Both the position numbers and the translations under genes were made by a program. A stretch of DNA of 64,000 bases, taken from assembly GCA_030604825.1 (NCBI GenBank), contig JAUVVB010000005.1:1-64000 (forward strand), read 5' to 3'. Shown one piece after another: positions 34,632 to 44,519 of the stretch; positions within the stretch are counted from its first letter, which is position 1; the number at the start of each line of letters is the position of its first letter. Source of the stretch: Chloroflexota bacterium (GTDB lineage Bacteria > Chloroflexota > Dehalococcoidia > E44-bin15). The notes below the pieces were generated by a model. That model was not told where the DNA came from. It ran no database searches and saw only the letters and a program-made list of their open reading frames with translations.

Positions 34632-36092
34632 ATGAGTGAGCGTTGGGAAGGAAAATTCAACAAGGTAGACGATTATCGCTGGGAGATCCCCAAGAGCTAC
34701 AAGGCGGGGATGAGAGTTCCTGGGCTTATCTATGCCGATGAGGCCATGCTGGAGCATATCAAGAAGGACAGGACCCCGGAGCAGGTAGCCAACGTTGCCT
34801 TCCTTCCCGGGATCGTTTTCCGCTCCCTGGCCATGCCCGATATCCATTGGGGCTATGGCTTCCCCATTGGTGGAGTGGCCGCCATGGGGATCGAGGATGG
34901 CGTCATCTCCCCGGGAGGTGTTGGCTATGACATCAATTGTGGGGTGAGGTTGCTGCGCACCAATCTCATGGAGGAGGATGTACTGCCCAGGATCGGGGAG
35001 CTGGTCTCCGCCCTTTTCCGCAACATCCCCTCAGGGGTGGGCTCCCAGGGTAAGTTAAGGCTGGATCAGAGGGAGATAGATCAGGTCCTGCTCAAGGGCG
35101 CTCGCTGGCCCGTGGAGAAGGGATATGGGGAGGCCAGGGATCTTGAGGTAACCGAGGAGAATGGGAGCATGCCGGGCGGCGATCCCGGGTGTGTGAGCGT
35201 CAAGGCGAAGCAGCGAGGTGGCCCGCAGCTGGGAACCCTGGGTGCGGGGAACCATTTCCTGGAGGTTGAGGTGGTGGAGGAGATCTATGAGCCCGCCATT
35301 GCCTCGGTTATGGGAATTGAAAGGGTGGGTCAGGTTCTGCTCCTCATCCACACCGGCTCCAGGGGACTGGGTCACCAGGTTTGCGACGACCATCTGGTGG
35401 TAATGGGGAGGGCGGCGCAAAAATATGGCATCCAACTTCCCGACCGCCAGCTGGCCTGTGCCCCGGTGAAGTCCCCCGAGGGGAAGGCCTACTTTGCCGC
35501 CATGGTCTGCGCCGCAAACTATGCCTGGGCCAACCGCCAGTGCATCGCCCATTGGGTCAGGGAGTCCTTCATCCAGGTCTTTGGAAAGAGCCGGCGCGAC
35601 CTGGGCCTGGAGATGATCTATGATGTGGCCCACAATATCGCCAAGATGGAGGAGCATCAGGTGGAGGGGAGGAGGCTCTCCCTCTGTGTACATCGCAAAG
35701 GGGCAACCAGGGCCTTCCCCGCAGGGCATCCCGCCGTGCCTCCCCTCTATGCCGATATCGGGCAGCCGGTGTTCATCCCCGGCGATATGGGTCGCTATTC
35801 CTACATCCTGGTGGGCACGCAGCGGGCGATGGAGGAGACCTTTGGTTCCACCTGTCATGGCGCGGGGAGAGTTCAGAGCCGCTCCGCAGCCAAGCGAAGC
35901 CTGCGCGGCGCCGATGTTGCCCGAGGGCTGGCTGAAAGGGGGATCACGGTAAAGACGGGCAGCATGTCCTCCCTCGCCGAGGAGGCGTCGCAGGCCTACA
36001 AGGATGTGCAAAAGGTGGTGGAGGTAACCCACGGGGCGGGGATATCGCTAAAGGTAGCCAGGGCAAGACCCCTAGGGGTGGTCAAAGGCTAG
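34632..36092 (+). CDS. rtcB: RNA-splicing ligase RtcB
   Basis: 486 aa. Joins RNA 3'-phosphate or 2',3'-cyclic phosphate ends to 5'-OH with Mn2+ and GTP. Metal ligands lie in GVGYDINCGVRLL (Asp, Cys), LGAGNHFLEV and LLIHTGSRGLGHQV (His); DVAHNIAKMEEH adds another His; HRKGATRAFPAGHP and TCHGAGRVQSRS carry the guanylate-accepting His. GGGGGAG precedes the ATG. With archease it forms the two-gene repair/splicing unit. No tRNA intron is visible here, so RNA repair is the more likely use. Confidence 0.95.
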   Translation: MSERWEGKFNKVDDYRWEIPKSYKAGMRVPGLIYADEAMLEHIKKDRTPEQVANVAFLPGIVFRSLAMPDIHWGYGFPIGGVAAMGIEDGVISPGGVGYDINCGVRLLRTNLMEEDVLPRIGELVSALFRNIPSGVGSQGKLRLDQREIDQVLLKGARWPVEKGYGEARDLEVTEENGSMPGGDPGCVSVKAKQRGGPQLGTLGAGNHFLEVEVVEEIYEPAIASVMGIERVGQVLLLIHTGSRGLGHQVCDDHLVVMGRAAQKYGIQLPDRQLACAPVKSPEGKAYFAAMVCAANYAWANRQCIAHWVRESFIQVFGKSRRDLGLEMIYDVAHNIAKMEEHQVEGRRLSLCVHRKGATRAFPAGHPAVPPLYADIGQPVFIPGDMGRYSYILVGTQRAMEETFGSTCHGAGRVQSRSAAKRSLRGADVARGLAERGITVKTGSMSSLAEEASQAYKDVQKVVEVTHGAGISLKVARARPLGVVKG

Positions 36093-36252: not shown

Positions 36253-37989
36253 GTGTTCGAGAAGGATAGGCTTGAGGAAATCGAGAGGAAACGAAAGGAG
36301 TGGGAGGAGGGGACGCTGAGGCAGTCCCTGGAACGATTTGGAGTGACGGAGAGTCCCCAGAAGTTCTATACCCCCCTGGACATAGAGAACCACGATTTCC
36401 TGGAAGCTGTGGGATTTCCCGGTGAATACCCCTTCACCGCCGATGTCTATCCCACTGCCGTGCCGACGCTGGCCCTGATGGGCGCTGCCCCTACCGAGCT
36501 GGTGAGGGCGGGGATGTATTCCGGTTATGGGACCGCGGAGGATACCAGGGATTACTATAACTACATGAGGTCGATAGGCCGTCCCGGTGGGCCCAACATC
36601 GCCTTCGACCTTCCTACCCAGTGCGGCTATGATTCAGACCACCCCACGGCTCGGGGGGAGGGGGGCAAGGTGGGGGTGGCGGTGGACACCCTGAGGGACA
36701 TGGAGGTGATCTATGAGGCCTTTGTGGGCGATAATGACCTGGACAAGATCGCCTCCAACTTCACCATAAACGCCCCCTGTAACGTCATCCTCACCATGTA
36801 TTTCGCCCTGGCGGAGAAGAGGGGCATCCCTCCAGACAGGCTGAGGGGGACTCCCCAAAACGATATCTTGAAGGAGTTCGTTGCCCACGGCACCTATATC
36901 TTCCCACCAAAGCCATCGATGAGGATGGTGAGGGATACCATCACCTACTGCACCGAGCACGCCCCCCTGATGAACACCATCAGCATCTGTGGCTATCACA
37001 TGAGGGAGGCCGGCGCCACCGGACCCCAGGCGGTCGCCTTCACCTTCGCCAATGCCATAGCCTATGCCCAGCTGGCGATGGATGCCGGCCTGGATGCGGA
37101 TACCTTTCTCCCCCGCTTCACCTTCCTCAGTTTTGGCGGCAGCATGGAGTTCTTCGAGGAGATCGCCCTTCAGCGGGCGGCAAGGAGGATGTGGGCCAAG
37201 ATAGCCAAAGAGCGCCTTGGCGCCAAGAACCCCAGGTGCTGGATATTGCGCCAGGCGGCTGCCGGCCATATCGGGGAGGTGAGCAAGACGGTGCAGCGCC
37301 CTCTCAATAACTTCATTCGCGCTGTCATCGGAGGGGTGGCCTCCTCCTTGAGCGGGGGAGGTCCCTTCACTGGATTCCCCTACGATGAGCCCCTGGGGCT
37401 GGGGCATAGCCTTGAGGGGTGGCAGTTAAACATCGATGCCATGAGGGTCCTGATGCATGAGGCCAAGCTCTGCGAGGTTGCAGACCCCTTGGCCGGCTCC
37501 TACTACGTGGAATCCCTTACCGACCAGATGGAGCAGGAGGCGTGGAAGGAGCTGGAGAAGATCGATGCCCTAGGGGGTGCTGTGGCTGCCATTGAGCGGG
37601 GTTATATGCAGCAGGAGATCACCAAGAGCGCCTATCGTTTCCAGCAGGAGGTGGAGAGAAGGGAGAAGGTCGTTGTGGGGGTGAACCGGTTTACCGGGGA
37701 GCATGAGCTGGAGGTCACCACCACCAGGCTGGTGGAGCACCCCTATGACCCGGTGAAGCGGGCCCAGGCCGAGGAGAAGCAGATAGCAAACCTGGATCGG
37801 GTGAAGAGGGAGCGGGATAATGAGAAGGTAAATGCCTGCCTCATGCATCTGGAGGAGGCGGCCAGGGATGAGAAGGTAAATCTCATTCCCATAATCCTGG
37901 AGGCAGTGAAGGAGTATACCTCCCTGGGGGAGATATGTGGCGTGCTGAGGGATGTATTCGGGGAATACCAGGCCTATGAGGCGCTTTGA
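36253..37989 (+). CDS. methylmalonyl-CoA-mutase-like large subunit, altered pocket
   Basis: 578 aa, the TIM-barrel catalytic part without a B12-binding domain. AFDLPTQCGYDSDHP, GTPQNDILKEFVAHGTYIFPP, SISICGYHMREAG and RMWAKIAKERLGAKNP identify the adenosylcobalamin acyl-CoA mutase family. Two changes stand out: the residue matching the carboxylate-binding Arg207 of Propionibacterium mutase is His (FVAHG instead of MVRNT), and the segment between DVYPT and YSGYG differs from the usual RPWTIRQYAGF. The B12-binding small subunit is not nearby. So the substrate may not be methylmalonyl-CoA. GTG start with GGAGGT; first gene of the operon. Confidence 0.87.
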   Translation: MFEKDRLEEIERKRKEWEEGTLRQSLERFGVTESPQKFYTPLDIENHDFLEAVGFPGEYPFTADVYPTAVPTLALMGAAPTELVRAGMYSGYGTAEDTRDYYNYMRSIGRPGGPNIAFDLPTQCGYDSDHPTARGEGGKVGVAVDTLRDMEVIYEAFVGDNDLDKIASNFTINAPCNVILTMYFALAEKRGIPPDRLRGTPQNDILKEFVAHGTYIFPPKPSMRMVRDTITYCTEHAPLMNTISICGYHMREAGATGPQAVAFTFANAIAYAQLAMDAGLDADTFLPRFTFLSFGGSMEFFEEIALQRAARRMWAKIAKERLGAKNPRCWILRQAAAGHIGEVSKTVQRPLNNFIRAVIGGVASSLSGGGPFTGFPYDEPLGLGHSLEGWQLNIDAMRVLMHEAKLCEVADPLAGSYYVESLTDQMEQEAWKELEKIDALGGAVAAIERGYMQQEITKSAYRFQQEVERREKVVVGVNRFTGEHELEVTTTRLVEHPYDPVKRAQAEEKQIANLDRVKRERDNEKVNACLMHLEEAARDEKVNLIPIILEAVKEYTSLGEICGVLRDVFGEYQAYEAL

Positions 37990-38004
37990 GCAGGAGGTTT
38001 CACC

Positions 38005-39567
38005 ATGGGCAAGGAGATGGAGGAGAGGATACAGCAACTCAGGGAGACCAAAGAGCGTGCCCACATGGGTGGAGGGCCGGAGAAGATAGAGAAGCAGCAC
38101 CAGAAGGGAAAGCTTACCGCTCGGGAGAGGATCGATTACCTGTTGGATGCGGGGAGCTTCGTCGAGTTCAACCCGCTGGTGGGACATCGCAACGGGGCCC
38201 CTGGCGATGGCATCGTGTCGGGGCATGGCACCATAGATGGCAGGGTTGTTTGCATCTACTCCCAGGATGCCACCGTTCTCGGGGGCTCCATAGGCATGTT
38301 GCACGGCTATAAGATGTATCGCACCGTGGAGATGGCACTGGACATGGGGGTTCCCGTTATTGGGCTCCACGATTCCCCTGGGGCCAGGGCAGCCAGGGTG
38401 GGGGAAAGGGGGGCGGAGCTTGCCCCCAGGGAGGAGAAGAGCGGCGGCTCCGTTTTCTTCCCCAACACCCAGGCCTCCGGGGTGGTGCCCCAGATCGCGG
38501 CCATCCTCGGCTCCTGCGCCGGCATCTCCGTCTATTCTCCAGCGCTCATGGATTTCGTGTTCATGGTGGATGGCACCAGCCATATGTTCATCACCGGGCC
38601 CCGCATCGTCAGGACGGTGACCGGGGAGGATATAACCATGGAGGAGCTGGGGGGGGCTATGGTTCATACCCAGATTTCGGGGGTGGCTGACCTGAGGACC
38701 CCCACAGAAGAGGAGTGCCTGGAAAAGATAAAGAAGCTGCTCGGCTTTCTCCCCGACAACTGCAACCAGAAGTCCCCTTTCCTCGACGTCGGCGACGACC
38801 CAAACCGCCTCATCGATGAGCTGGAGGTGATCGTCCCCGACGACCCGGATAAGCCCTATGATATGCATGAGGTGGTCACCAGGGTGGTGGACAACGGGGA
38901 TTTCCTCGAGATAAAGGGGGAGTTTGCCCCTGAGATGATCGTTGGCTTCGGCCGGCTTGCCGGTCAGACCGTGGGCATCGTGGCCAACCAGCCCATGCAT
39001 TATGGGGGGGCATTAACCATTGATAGCTCGGATAAGCAGGCCAGGTTCATGAGAACCTGTGATGCCTTTAACATCCCCATAATCCTGCTGGTGGATACCC
39101 CGGCCTATGCCCCGGGCTCGGAGCAGGAGCAGGGCGGGATCATCCGCCACGGGGCTAAGGTCCTCTATGCCCTCTGCGAGGCGGCGGTTCCCCGCATCGC
39201 GGTGGTACTTCGCAAGTGCTATGGAGGGGGCAACCTGGGGATGGGCGTTGTGCCCGGCCTGGGCACCGATTTCGTCTTCGCCTGGCCCATTGCCGAGATG
39301 GGGGTGATGGGGGCTAAGGAGACGGTGCAGCTGTTCTATGCCGATCAGATCGCCAAGGCGGATAACCCGCAGCAGTTTCTGGAGGAGAAGGTAAAGGAGT
39401 ATCACGATCGATATGCCAATCCCCTCTATGTGGCCTCCGTTAGCTCCCACATACAGGATGTTATCGAACCCAGGGAGACCAGGAGGTGCCTCTGCGCCGC
39501 CCTTAAGCTGCTGGAGGGGAAAAGGCAGACCAGGTATCCCAAGAGGCATGGCAACATCCCCTTATGA
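38005..39567 (+). CDS. mmdA: biotin-dependent carboxyltransferase, MmdA-like
   Basis: 520 aa. Twin crotonase-fold carboxyltransferase of the propionyl/methylmalonyl-CoA type: LTARERIDYLLDAGSFVEF, SGHGTIDGRVVCIYSQDATVL, GARAARVGERGAELA, ITGPRIVRTVTGEDITMEELGGA, then LVDTPAYAPGSEQEQGGIIRHGAK and CYGGGNLGMG in the second half. No biotin carboxylase gene is nearby, while a membrane beta subunit is, so it probably removes CO2 from a malonyl-type thioester onto biotin. 15 bases after the mutase gene. Confidence 0.92.
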   Translation: MGKEMEERIQQLRETKERAHMGGGPEKIEKQHQKGKLTARERIDYLLDAGSFVEFNPLVGHRNGAPGDGIVSGHGTIDGRVVCIYSQDATVLGGSIGMLHGYKMYRTVEMALDMGVPVIGLHDSPGARAARVGERGAELAPREEKSGGSVFFPNTQASGVVPQIAAILGSCAGISVYSPALMDFVFMVDGTSHMFITGPRIVRTVTGEDITMEELGGAMVHTQISGVADLRTPTEEECLEKIKKLLGFLPDNCNQKSPFLDVGDDPNRLIDELEVIVPDDPDKPYDMHEVVTRVVDNGDFLEIKGEFAPEMIVGFGRLAGQTVGIVANQPMHYGGALTIDSSDKQARFMRTCDAFNIPIILLVDTPAYAPGSEQEQGGIIRHGAKVLYALCEAAVPRIAVVLRKCYGGGNLGMGVVPGLGTDFVFAWPIAEMGVMGAKETVQLFYADQIAKADNPQQFLEEKVKEYHDRYANPLYVASVSSHIQDVIEPRETRRCLCAALKLLEGKRQTRYPKRHGNIPL

Positions 39568-39615
39568 TACCTCTGTGAACCGGAAGGGCTTTGATAGGCT
39601 TGATGTGGAGCGAAG

Positions 39616-39900
39616 ATGGCTGACCTAGGCTCTGCCCTGGAGATAACGCTGATGGCCTTAGCCACCCTTCTCGTCATCTCCCTCTTTTTCGTGGCGCTGA
39701 CCCGCGGCCTTCAGTGGCTGACGAGGGTGACCAGCGGGGAAAGGGTGGAGGAGCGGAGGGCTGTCATCCCCAAGGAGAAAGAGGAGAGGGCGGTCATTGC
39801 CATGGCGGCAGTAGCGGCCTATTTAGAGGCGGAGCGGCAGGCAGAGGCCAGGGCTTCTTCATCCGAATCCCCGAAGCAGAAAGGGAGAGATGAAGCGTAG
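39616..39900 (+). CDS. OadG/MmdD-like small membrane subunit
   Basis: 94 aa. One N-terminal helix (EITLMALATLLVISLFFVAL) followed by a charged, Ala/Glu-rich cytoplasmic tail, the build of OadG and MmdD, which tether the carboxyltransferase to the membrane pump. The usual C-terminal His/Pro zinc motif is not visible. It overlaps the biotin carrier gene by 11 bases. Confidence 0.75.
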   Translation: MADLGSALEITLMALATLLVISLFFVALTRGLQWLTRVTSGERVEERRAVIPKEKEERAVIAMAAVAAYLEAERQAEARASSSESPKQKGRDEA

Positions 39901-40306
39901 ATTCAGGATCACCATAAAGGGTGAGAGCTACGAGGTTGAGGTCGAAGAGATAGGACCAGCCCAGAAGGAGCCTTCAACGGCCACCCCTTCTGCTGCCCCA
40001 GAAGCTCCCCCCGCGACAAAGGCAGGGCCATCTTCCGTTGCCCCAGAAGCGCCCCCAGCCGCAGAGGCGGGATCCCCTTCCATTGCCGTGGAGGAGGTGA
40101 TCAGCGCCCCCATGCCGGGGACGGTGATATCCGTCAACGTCACGGTTGGCGATGCGGTGAAGGATGGCGATGTTTTGCTCATAATGGAGTCGATGAAGAT
40201 CCAGAACGAGATAACCGCTCCCAGAGATGGGATGGTAAAGGAGATACATGTGTCCCAGGGCAGGTATGTGAGAAGGGGGGAGCGTCTAATCACCGTTATG
40301 GGGTGA
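39890..40306 (+). CDS. mmdC: biotin carrier protein 1 (MmdC/OadA-tail type)
   Basis: 138 aa. An N-terminal beta segment (RFRITIKGESYEVEVEEI), a Pro/Ala linker made of two near-repeats of APEAPPA, then a biotinyl domain: ISAPMPGTVISVNVTVGD and ESMKIQNEITAPRDG with the biotin-accepting Lys in ESMKI. Carries CO2 between MmdA and the membrane pump subunit. The Met-Lys-Ile context differs from the commoner Met-Lys-Met. Confidence 0.9.
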   Translation: MKRRFRITIKGESYEVEVEEIGPAQKEPSTATPSAAPEAPPATKAGPSSVAPEAPPAAEAGSPSIAVEEVISAPMPGTVISVNVTVGDAVKDGDVLLIMESMKIQNEITAPRDGMVKEIHVSQGRYVRRGERLITVMG

Positions 40307-40394
40307 AAAGGGACATCCGGTTTCAGGAGCGTCTTTTGGGAATTGGGTAGTTTTTTCCTTTTCGTGATTTTTTCAAATGGTTTACTTCAGTTGA

Positions 40395-40435
40395 CCTACG
40401 GCAACACCATATCGATCGCCGTAGGATTGCTTTTT
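40395..40435 (+). terminator. hairpin with T-run between the two biotin carrier genes
   Basis: CCTACGGC and GCCGTAGG make an exact 8-base stem with a 15-base loop, followed four bases later by TTTTT (40431-40435). It could reduce expression of the downstream genes rather than end the operon, as no clear new promoter follows. Confidence 0.5.
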
Positions 40436-40468
40436 ATCTACCGGTAATTAAAAGGAGGATGGAGTCCT

Positions 40469-40711
40469 ATGTTCATCCAGCAACAGGGGGGAAATGAAGA
40501 TGTGGTTATCTCCCCGATGCCGGGAACGATTATCTCCATCAAGGTGAAGGTTGGCGATGCGGTGAAGGCTGGGGATGTCCTGCTGGTGTTGGAGTCGATG
40601 AAGATCCAGAATGAAATAACCGCTCCCAGAGATGGCACCATCAAGGAGATCCTTGTGACTGAGGGGAAATATGTGAAGAGGAGGGAGTCCCTGATCTCTA
40701 TCAGGGCATAA
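40469..40711 (+). CDS. biotin carrier protein 2, 80 aa
   Basis: A bare biotinyl domain: ISPMPGTIISIKVKVGDAV and ESMKIQNEITAPRDG with the same biotin Lys context as carrier 1. The DNA around this motif is nearly identical to that at 40187-40232, indicating a recent tandem duplication that lost the N-terminal part. Strong AAAAGGAGG site. Why two carriers are kept is unknown. Confidence 0.88.
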   Translation: MFIQQQGGNEDVVISPMPGTIISIKVKVGDAVKAGDVLLVLESMKIQNEITAPRDGTIKEILVTEGKYVKRRESLISIRA

Positions 40712-40717
40712 TAGAGG

Positions 40718-41848
40718 GTGCCAGACAGGGTTATCGACTTTTTCAGCTTCACCGGTTTTGCCCATTTTTACTGGGGCAATCTGGTGATGATCCTCGTCGG
40801 GTGCGTTCTCATCTATCTTGCCATCAGGAGGCGCTATGAGCCCCTGCTGCTGATTCCAATCGGTTTCGGCATCATACTGGCCAACCTGCCCTTAACTGGC
40901 TTGATGGCGACGGGCGGCGAGGGAGAGCCAGCGGGGCTTCTCTCATATCTTTATCTGGGGGTGAAGTTTGCCATATTTCCCCCCTTGATCTTCCTCGGCA
41001 TTGGGGCGCTGACCGATTTCAGCCCCCTGCTGGCCAACCCCAAGACCTTCTTTTTGGGTGCTGCCGCCCAGATTGGCATTTTCGCCACCCTGTTCGGTGC
41101 CCTGGCTCTGGGTTTTACCTTGAAAGAGTCGGGGAGCATCGGGATCATCGGGGGTGCCGATGGCCCCACCGCGATATACACCTCAGCCCTGCTTGCTCCC
41201 CATCTCATCGGGCCGGTGGCCATTGCCGCCTATTCCTACATGGCTCTGGTACCCGTCATTCAGCCGCCAATAATGAGGCTGCTCACCACCAAGAAGGAGA
41301 GGGCCATTATGATGAAGGAGCTGCGCCCCGTTTCCCAGCTGGAGCTCATCCTGTTCCCCATAATCATTACGGTGCTGGTCATTCTCTTTCTGCCCAAGGC
41401 AGCACCTCTCATTGGAATGATGATGTTTGGCAATCTGCTGCGCGAGAGCGGCGTGGTGGAGAGGCTGGCCAGAACGGCGGGGAATGAGCTGATAAACATC
41501 GTTACCCTCTTTCTCTGCCTCTCGGTGGGGGCAACGATGAACGCCCAGTTTGTGCTGAGCCTGATGGTCATAGAGATCTTCATCCTCGGCATTTTCGCCT
41601 TTGCCTTGGGCACAGCGGGCGGCGTTTTGATAGGGAAGCTGATGTGCAAGCTCACCAAGGGGCAGATCAATCCCCTCATTGGCGCTGCCGGGGTTTCGGC
41701 GGTTCCCATGGCAGCCAGGGTGGTCCAGGCTGAGGGGCAGCGGGAGGATCGGCGCAACTTCCTCCTCCATCACGCCATGGGGCCAAACGTTGCCGGTGTG
41801 GTCGCCTCAGCCACGGTGGCCGGATTATTGATAGCTTATTTGACATAA
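40718..41848 (+). CDS. mmdB: Na+-translocating decarboxylase beta subunit (OadB/MmdB type)
   Basis: 376 aa with about nine to eleven hydrophobic helices. IGIIGGADGPTAIYTSALLA holds the conserved Asp used for Na+ binding in the Klebsiella OadB, followed by YSYMALVPVIQPPIM; GNLLRESGVVERLARTA and AAGVSAVPMAARVVQAEGQ are also characteristic. Decarboxylation of carboxybiotin drives Na+ out across the membrane. GTG start 6 bases after biotin carrier 2. Confidence 0.93.
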   Translation: MPDRVIDFFSFTGFAHFYWGNLVMILVGCVLIYLAIRRRYEPLLLIPIGFGIILANLPLTGLMATGGEGEPAGLLSYLYLGVKFAIFPPLIFLGIGALTDFSPLLANPKTFFLGAAAQIGIFATLFGALALGFTLKESGSIGIIGGADGPTAIYTSALLAPHLIGPVAIAAYSYMALVPVIQPPIMRLLTTKKERAIMMKELRPVSQLELILFPIIITVLVILFLPKAAPLIGMMMFGNLLRESGVVERLARTAGNELINIVTLFLCLSVGATMNAQFVLSLMVIEIFILGIFAFALGTAGGVLIGKLMCKLTKGQINPLIGAAGVSAVPMAARVVQAEGQREDRRNFLLHHAMGPNVAGVVASATVAGLLIAYLT

Positions 41849-41854
41849 GGAGGT

Positions 41855-42637
41855 ATGATGGCGGAACAAGTTCTTCTGGTGGAGCAGGAAGGAAATATTT
41901 GCACCCTCACCATCAACCGACCGGAGAGGCGAAATGCCCTTACCGCTGAGGTGCTTTACCGGCTGGGCGATGCCCTCCAGGCGCTAAAGGATGTCAGGGT
42001 GGTGGTGCTCAGGGGCGCTGGGGAGAAGGCTTTCTCCTCGGGGATGGATCTGGGGAGCAGGGCTGAAGTTTCGCAGGAAGAGGTGATAAAAAAGGGCCAT
42101 CCCCTGGACTATGCCATCCACAGCATCATCGATTTTCCCTTCCCCGTCATTGCCATGATCTATGGCGCTGCCATGGGGTCTGGCTGCGACCTGGCAGCTA
42201 CCTGTGACCTGCGCATTGCTGCCGACAATGCCAGGATGGGGATAAACCCGGTTAAGATAGGAGGGGTGTATTACCCCGGGGGCATCCGGCGCCTGATCAA
42301 TGCGGTGGGCCTTTCCCAGGCAAAGGAGCTCTTCTTTACCGGCAGATTCATCGATGCCCAGCGGGCAAGGGAGATTGGCCTGGTGGATCACGTGGTTCCC
42401 GCTGAGGAGCTGCCCTCCTTCACCTATGAGCTGGCCGGGGAGATTGCCGAGAACGCCCCCCTGGCGGTGAGCGCCACAAAAGTGATATTCAACAGGCTGC
42501 TCAAGCATCAGAGGCTGAGCGCTGAGGATGAGGCTGAGATCTTAGCCCTCATCGATACGGTGGAGAAGAGCGAGGATAGAAGGGAGGGCCTCAGGGCTTT
42601 TATCGAAAAGAGGAAGCCCAACTTTACCGGCAGATAG
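41855..42637 (+). CDS. crotonase-fold protein resembling methylmalonyl-CoA decarboxylase YgfG
   Basis: 260 aa. The catalytic Glu positions of enoyl-CoA hydratase are changed: GSGCDLAATCDL (Asp for Glu) and GINPVKIGGVYYPGG (Val for Glu). The latter resembles the TPVNLGVPYN loop of E. coli YgfG, whose Tyr140 is conserved here, and the C-terminus AFIEKRKPNFTG is also YgfG-like. The His66 region differs (SSGMDLG). A malonyl-type thioester decarboxylase fits its place after the pump genes better than a hydratase. AAGGAGG precedes the ATG. Confidence 0.75.
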   Translation: MMAEQVLLVEQEGNICTLTINRPERRNALTAEVLYRLGDALQALKDVRVVVLRGAGEKAFSSGMDLGSRAEVSQEEVIKKGHPLDYAIHSIIDFPFPVIAMIYGAAMGSGCDLAATCDLRIAADNARMGINPVKIGGVYYPGGIRRLINAVGLSQAKELFFTGRFIDAQRAREIGLVDHVVPAEELPSFTYELAGEIAENAPLAVSATKVIFNRLLKHQRLSAEDEAEILALIDTVEKSEDRREGLRAFIEKRKPNFTGR

Positions 42638-42653
42638 ATTGGGGGGATTGGGG

Positions 42654-42893
42654 ATGGCAGACTATGTTTTCCGCTACCGGCTGGAGGTTGAGGACAAGGG
42701 GGAGCCAATATACCACGACCCCTTGGTGGAGATGATCAGGGAGCAAATGGAGAACCTGCTCAACATCGTCATCCCGGTTGAGGGGCAGCGGGAGGTGAAG
42801 ATCGACGGTTTTAAGCTGCTTCGGGACAGGGAGCGGATATATAACATCTTCGCCAAGGAAGAGGAAAATCCGGGCGATCTCTTCCCCATTTGA
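42654..42893 (+). CDS. small protein related to the radical SAM N-terminal domain, 79 aa
   Basis: ATG 42654 with GGGGATTGGGG upstream. The segment DPLVEMIREQMENLLNIVIP and VKIDGFKLLRDRERIYNIF aligns with the first 60 residues of the next gene (PRIEFIKKQLESLL, VQVDGFRLKELKHWL). It is therefore a stand-alone paralogue of that domain. It may be a substrate, a partner or a regulator of the radical SAM protein. No name is known to me. Confidence 0.75.
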   Translation: MADYVFRYRLEVEDKGEPIYHDPLVEMIREQMENLLNIVIPVEGQREVKIDGFKLLRDRERIYNIFAKEEENPGDLFPI

Positions 42894-42920: not shown

Positions 42921-44519
42921 ATGAACTCCTTTCAGGACATCAGGAATGCCGCTTTATACGAGCCAAGGATTGAGTTCATCAAGAAGCAGCTGGAGAGCCT
43001 GCTTCGGGTGGTGGACCTGGAGAAGGGTGGGGAGGTTGTCCAGGTTGATGGCTTTCGGCTGAAGGAGCTGAAGCACTGGCTGGTTTCCTCCCGCTGCGAC
43101 CCGGCGGAGGTGTTTGAATATGCCTCAACCAGGTGCGACTGCGATTGCCTCTTTTGCTACAACAAGGGGAATCCCCCCTCGGTGGCATTGGGGAATCTGA
43201 GAAGACCCCCAAAAGAGGAACTTGAGGAGATGAAAACCAGGCTCGATTATTTCTTCCCCAAGGCAAAGCAAGGCCTCTTCTCCAGCTTGGGGGAGATCTA
43301 TGAGGCAGCGATGCACCCCCACTTCCTGGAGGTGCTTAGGCTGCTGCGGGAGAAAACCGAAAAGCCGTTTCGCATCACCACCAACGGGAAGACCCTCACC
43401 GAAGAAACCATCTCCCATTTGGCGGAGCTCAAGCCGATATACCTTTACCTTTCCCTCAACAGCGCCTCCGCGGAACGGCGAAGAAGGCTGATGAGGGACA
43501 GAAACCCCGGGATTGCCATCGATTCCCTGCCCCTGCTCAAGGAGGCGGGGATTCCCTATGCCGTGGTGATCGTCCCCTGGCCGGTTGACTCCCTTTCCCA
43601 GATGCTGGATGACCTAACCGATACCATCGCCTATGCCGATAAGCATGATTGCCACCTGGTGGAGATAAATCTCCCCGGTTACTCCCAATACTTCTCCTCC
43701 AAAAAGCTCTTTGACCTCGATGAGGTGTGGGGTGAGACCGTCTCCCACATCAGAAAGTTGAGGGCGAAGACCACCTCGCCCATCGTTGCCATGCCCACCA
43801 TGTATGAGGAGAACCTCTATGAGGAGCGCAAGAACCTGCCCCAAATCATAGGCCTGGTCAAGAACTCCCCCGCCCAAAGGGCAGGGCTGAACAAGGGGGA
43901 CCTCATCCTGGAGATAAACGGGATTTCGGTGCCGACAAGGCCTCAGGCCAGGGACCTCCTTTTCATGCTCCAGCAGAGCGATAATCGCCAGGCCACCATC
44001 GCCGTTGACAGGGAAGGAAAAGCCCTGGAGCTGAAGTTGGACCTGAACGATTTCTGCTATCCCTACTCCAGGGAGACGGATAATCACCTGGGGATCATCT
44101 TCATGGGGACGGGGCTGAGGTTGAGCTACCTGGAAGGGCTGAAGGAGATCGTGGATGCCCATAAGGCAAGGCATGTCCTCTTCCTCTCCTCGACCCTGAT
44201 GAAGCCCACCTTCAAGCAGTGCCTCACCCAGTCCCACCTCTTCGACGACCCGAGGCTGAGGATAGACATTCAGGTCCCCAGAAACAACTTCTTTGGGGGC
44301 AATGTTTTCATGGGGGATTTGCTGCTGGTTCAGGACTTCATCGACTTCATCAAGGAGTATCTAGAGAAGAACGCCAAGCCCGATCTCATCGTCATACCCT
44401 CCTCCCCCTTCAACCTGGGAGAGTGGGGCCGGGACCTTACGGGAAGGGTCTACCTGGAAATCGAGAGGGGGGTGGGAATTCCGGTGGAGCTTCTACAGTG
44501 TGCCACCATCTATGATTAG
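42921..44519 (+). CDS. radical SAM protein with internal PDZ domain
   Basis: 532 aa. Residues 1-60 repeat the domain of the small upstream protein. The radical SAM core begins with CDCDCLFCYNKG (CxxxCxxC at about residue 72) and continues with FRITTNGKTL and LYLSLNSASAERRRRLM. A PDZ domain follows near residues 295-375 (LVKNSPAQRAGLNKGDLILE). The C-terminal 150 residues (RHVLFLSSTLMKPTFKQCL, PDLIVIPSSPFNLGEWGRDL) recall DUF512. Known DUF512 proteins have the PDZ at the N-terminus, so the order here is unusual. Reaction unknown. Confidence 0.82.
   Translation: MNSFQDIRNAALYEPRIEFIKKQLESLLRVVDLEKGGEVVQVDGFRLKELKHWLVSSRCDPAEVFEYASTRCDCDCLFCYNKGNPPSVALGNLRRPPKEELEEMKTRLDYFFPKAKQGLFSSLGEIYEAAMHPHFLEVLRLLREKTEKPFRITTNGKTLTEETISHLAELKPIYLYLSLNSASAERRRRLMRDRNPGIAIDSLPLLKEAGIPYAVVIVPWPVDSLSQMLDDLTDTIAYADKHDCHLVEINLPGYSQYFSSKKLFDLDEVWGETVSHIRKLRAKTTSPIVAMPTMYEENLYEERKNLPQIIGLVKNSPAQRAGLNKGDLILEINGISVPTRPQARDLLFMLQQSDNRQATIAVDREGKALELKLDLNDFCYPYSRETDNHLGIIFMGTGLRLSYLEGLKEIVDAHKARHVLFLSSTLMKPTFKQCLTQSHLFDDPRLRIDIQVPRNNFFGGNVFMGDLLLVQDFIDFIKEYLEKNAKPDLIVIPSSPFNLGEWGRDLTGRVYLEIERGVGIPVELLQCATIYD

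Follow-up and report, generated by a model that had tools for sequence, protein, structure and literature searches.

The window analysed here, a stretch of 64,000 nucleotides from a sediment-type Chloroflexota bacterium of the class Dehalococcoidia, carries a gene for a divergent adenosylcobalamin (AdoCbl)-dependent acyl-CoA mutase in front of the genes of a predicted Na+-pumping decarboxylase, and the question is which acyl-CoA such a mutase would rearrange and whether its product would be passed to the pump. In methylmalonyl-CoA mutase (MCM), Arg207 and Tyr89 bind the substrate carboxylate. The preliminary description of the locus had read a His at the position of Arg207 and taken it as the sign of a different acyl-CoA, which would be delivered to the pump as a malonyl-type thioester.

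Gene content of the locus and its counterparts in relatives

The gene order proposed earlier, with MmdA, an OadG-like protein, two biotin carriers and an OadB-like pump subunit after the mutase, was borne out by the profile matches (Table 1), the OadG-like protein being a putative assignment for which profile searches returned no family match. No B12-binding subunit is present in the window operon or in its orthologue loci. The 84-aa protein downstream matched no family in the profile search; by eye, it resembles a duplicated N-terminal domain of the adjoining radical-SAM/PDZ/DUF512-like protein, and this gene pair is kept in the loci L127 and L229.

Table 1. Features of the mutase and pump locus, with positions counted from the first nucleotide of the window
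Feature	Position	Strand	Basis or remark
RtcB	34632..36092	+	Upstream flank of the pump locus, conserved among relatives from the family
Divergent AdoCbl acyl-CoA mutase, large (substrate-binding) subunit, 578 aa	36253..37989	+	PF01642, TIGR00641
Stretch replacing RPWTIRQ, about residues 65-88	36445..36516	+	Alignment; model confidence low here
Codon CAC, His212 (MCM Arg207)	36886..36888	+	Arg in all other clade members
Segment replacing MCM His328-Gln330-Trp334 (HSQTSGW)	37252..37281	+	Alignment
Segment replacing MCM TQSLHTN (Gln361-Asn366), just before the kept Asp378-Glu379 (MCM Glu370)	37357..37380	+	Alignment
MmdA-like carboxyltransferase, distinct sub-type	38005..39567	+	PF01039 525 bits; TIGR01117 651 bits
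OadG/MmdD-like small membrane protein (putative)	39616..39900	+	Position; hydrophobic N-terminus; 49-bit match to sister-locus gene
Biotin carboxyl carrier 1, ESMKI	39890..40306	+	PF00364 70.6 bits; NF047903 MmdC 115.6 bits
Biotin carboxyl carrier 2, ESMKI	40469..40711	+	PF00364 74.2 bits
OadB/MmdB-like Na+-pump subunit	40718..41848	+	TIGR01109 487 bits; PF03977 517 bits
Crotonase/enoyl-CoA hydratase family protein	41855..42637	+	PF00378 193 bits; recurrent clade partner
84-aa protein	42639..42893	+	Conserved beside the rSAM-PDZ gene; homologues in L127, L229
Radical SAM - PDZ - DUF512-like protein	42921..44519	+	Recurrent partner of the mutase clade

Among members of the bacterial family to which this genome belongs, the pump locus is modular, and the window has its full set. 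The locus of G001 reads RtcB-OadG-BCC-OadB (BCC, biotin carboxyl carrier), that of G002 is the same without a called OadG, and that of G005 reads RtcB-MmdA-BCC-BCC-OadB-crotonases-84aa-rSAM. The orthologues of the window mutase (G003:C19 and G010:C4), 83% identical to it, stand after RtcB and directly before OadG-BCC-OadB, the complete order in G010 being RtcB-mutase-OadG-BCC-OadB-crotonase-84aa-rSAM, without MmdA, with G003 alike as far as its contig reaches.

The mutase and its divergent clade

The window mutase was recognized by the profiles PF01642 (483 bits) and TIGR00641 (512 bits, with a cut-off of 304), and its AlphaFold model (pLDDT 81.9, pTM 0.86, with values below 50 only around residues 67-81) found its best PDB matches in 2-hydroxyisobutyryl-CoA mutase 4r3u (Foldseek, E 2.9e-37) and MCM, so that both profile and TIM-barrel fold place it in the AdoCbl-dependent acyl-CoA mutase family. 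With the MCM equivalog model NF006944 it reaches 424 bits against a cut-off of 876, a model that includes the B12 domain absent from the window protein. In the AdoCbl acyl-CoA mutases His244, Gln197 and Glu370 are the catalytic and adenosyl-contact residues, and all three are kept in the window protein, in invariant alignment columns, as His249, Gln202 and Glu379. In MCM, Glu370 touches the adenosyl group (PMC4413051). An inactive partner subunit of the MutA type is unlikely, given that these residues are kept and that MutA-like chains match far more weakly, both in sequence and in fold. At the two carboxylate-binding positions the protein has neither the Arg207 and Tyr89 of MCM nor the Gln207 and Phe/Ile89 of the isobutyryl- and 2-hydroxyisobutyryl-CoA mutases, but His207 together with a kept Tyr89.

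In the tree the window mutase does not nest inside the verified MCMs, as it would have had to for the preliminary description to be refuted on this point; it belongs to a separate, long-branched clade, which was compared in an alignment of 35 rows with a reference panel of 33 mutases. A sample of 393 Dehalococcoidia genomes contained the clade in 21 cases, and in a partial sample of the phylum (400 genomes) matches at E <= 1e-165 were found solely in the same class. Among the matches listed in a scan of named genomes there was one near relative. A literature search found no description of this mutase clade. One of its carriers, G040 (about 5 Mb, with an estimated contamination of 7%), holds several clade mutases (loci L241, L247 and others) and 24 matches to PFL-like glycyl-radical enzymes.

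The radical machinery is retained throughout the clade, with Glu370 in 35/35, His244 in 33/35, Gln197 in 34/35 and Tyr89 in 34/34 readable rows, while the RPWTIR stretch, His328, Gln330, Gln361, Asn366 and Phe287 have been lost. The replacement of RPWTIRQYAGF before YSGYG, noticed earlier in the window copy (which reads ...TELVRAGM where MCM has RPWTIRQ), is real and, as well as the further losses in the pocket, common to the whole clade; at the position of MCM Thr85, four residues ahead of Tyr89, most members have Arg. In the reference panel the positions 328, 330, 361 and 366 are held by H (25/33), Q (25/33), Q (33/33) and N (21/33), respectively; in the clade the reference residue is never the commonest at any of them, and many residues occur at each, varying between paralogues, in a scaffold that is conserved around them (TxQRPLNNLTR..., PYDEPLGL). 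Radical machinery that is conserved and a pocket that is paralogue-specific would be, as far as the alignment can tell, the expected outcome of substrate diversification. Binding of CoA in the rebuilt channel is putative, with RPWTIR and His328 lost and the loop weakly modelled. Arg207, present in 34 of the 35 rows, argues for clade substrates in which a carboxylate remains free, in keeping with a decarboxylase as partner.

The His212 substitution in the window copy

In the HMMER and MAFFT alignments the segment FVAHG of the window mutase falls on FMVRNT of MCM and no Arg is placed at position 207, which confirms the His reported there. The window copy is the sole non-Arg row of the clade alignment; Arg is kept in both syntenic orthologues (YVARG) and in the three same-genome clade paralogues (FVARG or LVARG). 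A family signature in His207 is ruled out by these Arg residues, and the view of the His as a determinant of substrate specificity is not supported, the residue being private to the window copy; Arg is found in all paralogues and in the orthologues that occupy the equivalent place in the operon. His212 is probably a functional change in the window copy and not a family-defining trait, one that probably weakens or shifts the binding of the carboxylate. Loss of the carboxylate anchor would, moreover, argue against the mutase making a malonyl-type, that is, carboxylated, thioester for the decarboxylase, a tension inside the earlier interpretation itself. His212 serves as a warning that a conspicuous substitution in an active site, when known from a single genome, may be confined to it.

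At sites invariant among the other core members the window mutase has two private changes, V137G and R212H, fewer than several other members have at clade-invariant sites. The dN/dS against the sister orthologues is about 0.11; therefore, the gene is under purifying selection and not an obvious pseudogene, a reading that the open full-length frame does not support either.

Paralogues and B12-binding subunits in the same genome

The genome (G000; 1.37 Mb, 30 contigs) holds eight PF01642 large subunits. Three others (on contigs C21, C6 and C28) fall in this divergent clade as well, with about 70% identity to the window mutase, and a tandem pair of canonical Arg207 large subunits (G000:C5:13773-17042, locus L009), 48-49% identical to it, shares its contig with a small B12-binding subunit. 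A search of the rest of the genome for candidate B12-binding subunits found small ORFs of this kind beside the clade paralogues on C21 and C28 and, further, on C5 and C27. On the last contig, outside the divergent clade, a PF01642 large subunit with His244 replaced by Asn and Gln197 by Tyr is followed by the small B12-binding subunit (L011:10387-11982, G000:C27). Single in-frame stops were also observed in otherwise well-conserved clade mutase frames, TAG in L012 (G000:C21:3151-4869) and in G158:C1 and TGA in G005:C11.

Carboxyltransferase sub-type, predicted sodium pump and recurrent partners

The carboxyltransferase of the window belongs to a distinct sub-type: its pocket motif is YGGGNLGMG, not YGGAYVVMS, and with TIGR01117 both it and the canonical copy on contig C17 (837 bits) remain below the cut-off of 999. 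It is 49% identical to that canonical MmdA and 58-71% to others of its sub-type, which occurs also in G005, G040 and G097. In three genomes (G000, G040:C88 and G097:C47) the sub-type adjoins a clade mutase or shares a gene run with it, and the link between mutase and decarboxylase recurs in this way in two genomes outside the family of the window genome (G040, G097). The sister genomes G003 and G010 lack the sub-type both at this locus and elsewhere; in these genomes the mutase can therefore do without it. OadB, a single copy in the genome, exceeds its TIGR01109 cut-off of 191 and keeps the Na+-site motifs GGADGP (Asp203), GVSA (Ser382) and GPN (Asn412), residues for which the reference is PMC7274780.

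Genes within 6 kb of the mutase were counted at 30 clade loci and 79 control mutase loci; since other phyla supplied most of the control loci and truncation affects some loci, the following counts are a guide and not a matched test. The B12-binding subunit was found at 17/30 clade loci vs 23/79 control loci, CaiB at 15/30 vs 5/79, MmgE/PrpD at 14/30 vs 0/79, crotonase at 11/30 vs 4/79 and rSAM-PDZ at 6/30 vs 0/79; MeaB accompanies the mutase at 4/30 clade loci. At L180 and L181 (G285 and G061) the clade mutase shares a gene run with a B12-binding subunit, two genes that by eye are succinyl-CoA-synthetase-like, and an acetyl-CoA hydrolase/transferase; a glyoxalase-fold epimerase-like gene adjoins the run at L180 (G285).

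Among the known systems, HcmA (4r3u) is the best solved-structure match (369 bits by sequence, TM 0.79/0.82 by fold) and is likewise a stand-alone large subunit with a separate small B12 subunit; however, it has Ile89/Gln207 and intact WTMRQ, HCQT and AQSLHTN, whereas the clade has Tyr89/Arg207 (His in the window) and none of those segments. The clade shares with MCM (MutB 1req, human MMUT 2xij) Tyr89, Gln197, His244 and Glu370, and outside the window copy also Arg207, but lacks, besides the pocket residues listed above, the fused B12 domain. The Na+-translocating decarboxylases MmdABCD and GcdABCD resemble the rest of the operon in uniting a carboxyltransferase, a biotin carrier, an OadB with Na+-site residues and a small OadG-like protein; they differ from the window, where the carboxyltransferase has the GGGNLG motif and falls below the TIGR01117 cut-off, the biotin carriers are two, and the mutase and a crotonase lie in the run.

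Possible reactions and competing explanations

On balance, it is probable that the locus encodes an AdoCbl mutase that acts on a carboxylated acyl-CoA of a non-standard kind and feeds the Na+-pumping decarboxylase, with the radical machinery kept and the substrate pocket rebuilt. The earlier idea of a non-standard mutase that feeds a sodium pump is plausible in this form, from the rebuilt pocket, the neighbouring pump and the recurrent link, and not because of the His. From sequence, predicted fold, clade and gene partners we infer the following order of reactions. A CaiB-type CoA-transferase would activate a di- or tricarboxylic acid that bears a substituent; the mutase, relying on a B12-binding subunit encoded elsewhere (C21 and C28 offer candidates), would rearrange a substituted succinyl-CoA into a substituted malonyl-CoA or act in the opposite direction; the carboxyltransferase of the special MmdA sub-type would pass CO2 to biotin; OadB would decarboxylate carboxybiotin and export Na+; and the resulting acyl-CoA would proceed through crotonase-type steps.

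The HcmA and IcmA-type mutases act on non-carboxylated substrates. That they carry Gln at position 207 in the alignment, and that His212 is real in a gene under purifying selection, would agree with a mutase type defined by the His itself, feeding the pump from a different, possibly non-carboxylated acyl-CoA; this is quite improbable, since the His occurs in no other clade member, the same-operon orthologues have Arg and the downstream decarboxylase requires a carboxylated substrate. The residue bears otherwise on an unlikely reading in which the window mutase is no longer catalytic, or CAC is a mistake of the assembly, and a different mutase serves the operon. Human MCM Arg228, which is the same residue by the primer context FMV-R-NT, has been changed to Gln (R228Q), with activity undetectable and chaperone-gated cofactor transfer below 10% (PMC10356863); by analogy the window copy may be inactive, and V137G adds another private change where the clade is otherwise invariant. 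Against such a loss stand the low dN/dS, the full-length open frame and the restriction of private changes at clade-invariant sites to two. An assembly error at CAC is conceivable; the codon differs at two bases from CGA, found in both sister orthologues, though a single base change from CAC (to CGC) would also encode Arg.

It is rather improbable, too, that the mutase is a drifted MCM in the ordinary route from succinyl-CoA through methylmalonyl-CoA to propionyl-CoA with Na+ export. The order MmdA-OadG-BCC-OadB is the known architecture of methylmalonyl-CoA decarboxylase, a Na+ pump decarboxylating methylmalonyl-CoA has been predicted in another Chloroflexi genome (PMC3971608), and clade mutases of G061 and G285 accompany genes similar by eye to succinyl-CoA synthetases, with the epimerase-like gene in G285; however, the genome already has canonical Arg207 mutases (C5) and a canonical MmdA (C17), and at this locus neither the pocket of the mutase nor the motif of the carboxyltransferase is canonical. 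MmgE/PrpD and rSAM-PDZ are, as far as we know, not part of the anaerobic alkane route by fumarate addition (Ass, Mcm, decarboxylase). This route shares with the proposed one the CoA activation, mutase, decarboxylation and beta-oxidation, passing from alkylsuccinyl-CoA through skeleton rearrangement to decarboxylation (PMC7701123), and several clade genomes have PFL-like enzymes, as many as 24 matches in G040. That the clade handles alkyl- or benzylsuccinates formed by a glycyl-radical enzyme is nevertheless highly improbable, such an enzyme being absent from this genome, its two sisters, G034, G047, G117, G061 and G160; a PF02901 profile search of G000, G003 and G010 gave no match, which disfavours fumarate addition as a self-contained route in this genome.

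Implications for the Dehalococcoidia

More tentatively, the Dehalococcoidia may possess a radiation of AdoCbl mutases whose paralogue-specific pockets would serve different carboxylated acyl-CoAs, together with the special carboxyltransferase and, in the family of this genome, the Na+ pump, as parts of a so far undescribed way to conserve energy from branched or cyclic di- or tricarboxylic acids, with MmgE/PrpD and radical-SAM/PDZ proteins as new partners and the window copy shifted further by His212. To our knowledge, the known reactions of AdoCbl acyl-CoA mutases are just a handful, and a clade lacking the usual CoA-pocket motifs yet keeping the radical residues suggests that carbon-skeleton rearrangements not yet known take place in uncultured sediment bacteria, for which the recurrent partners and the sodium pump outline a route, open to testing, that would lead from some acid to the conservation of energy.
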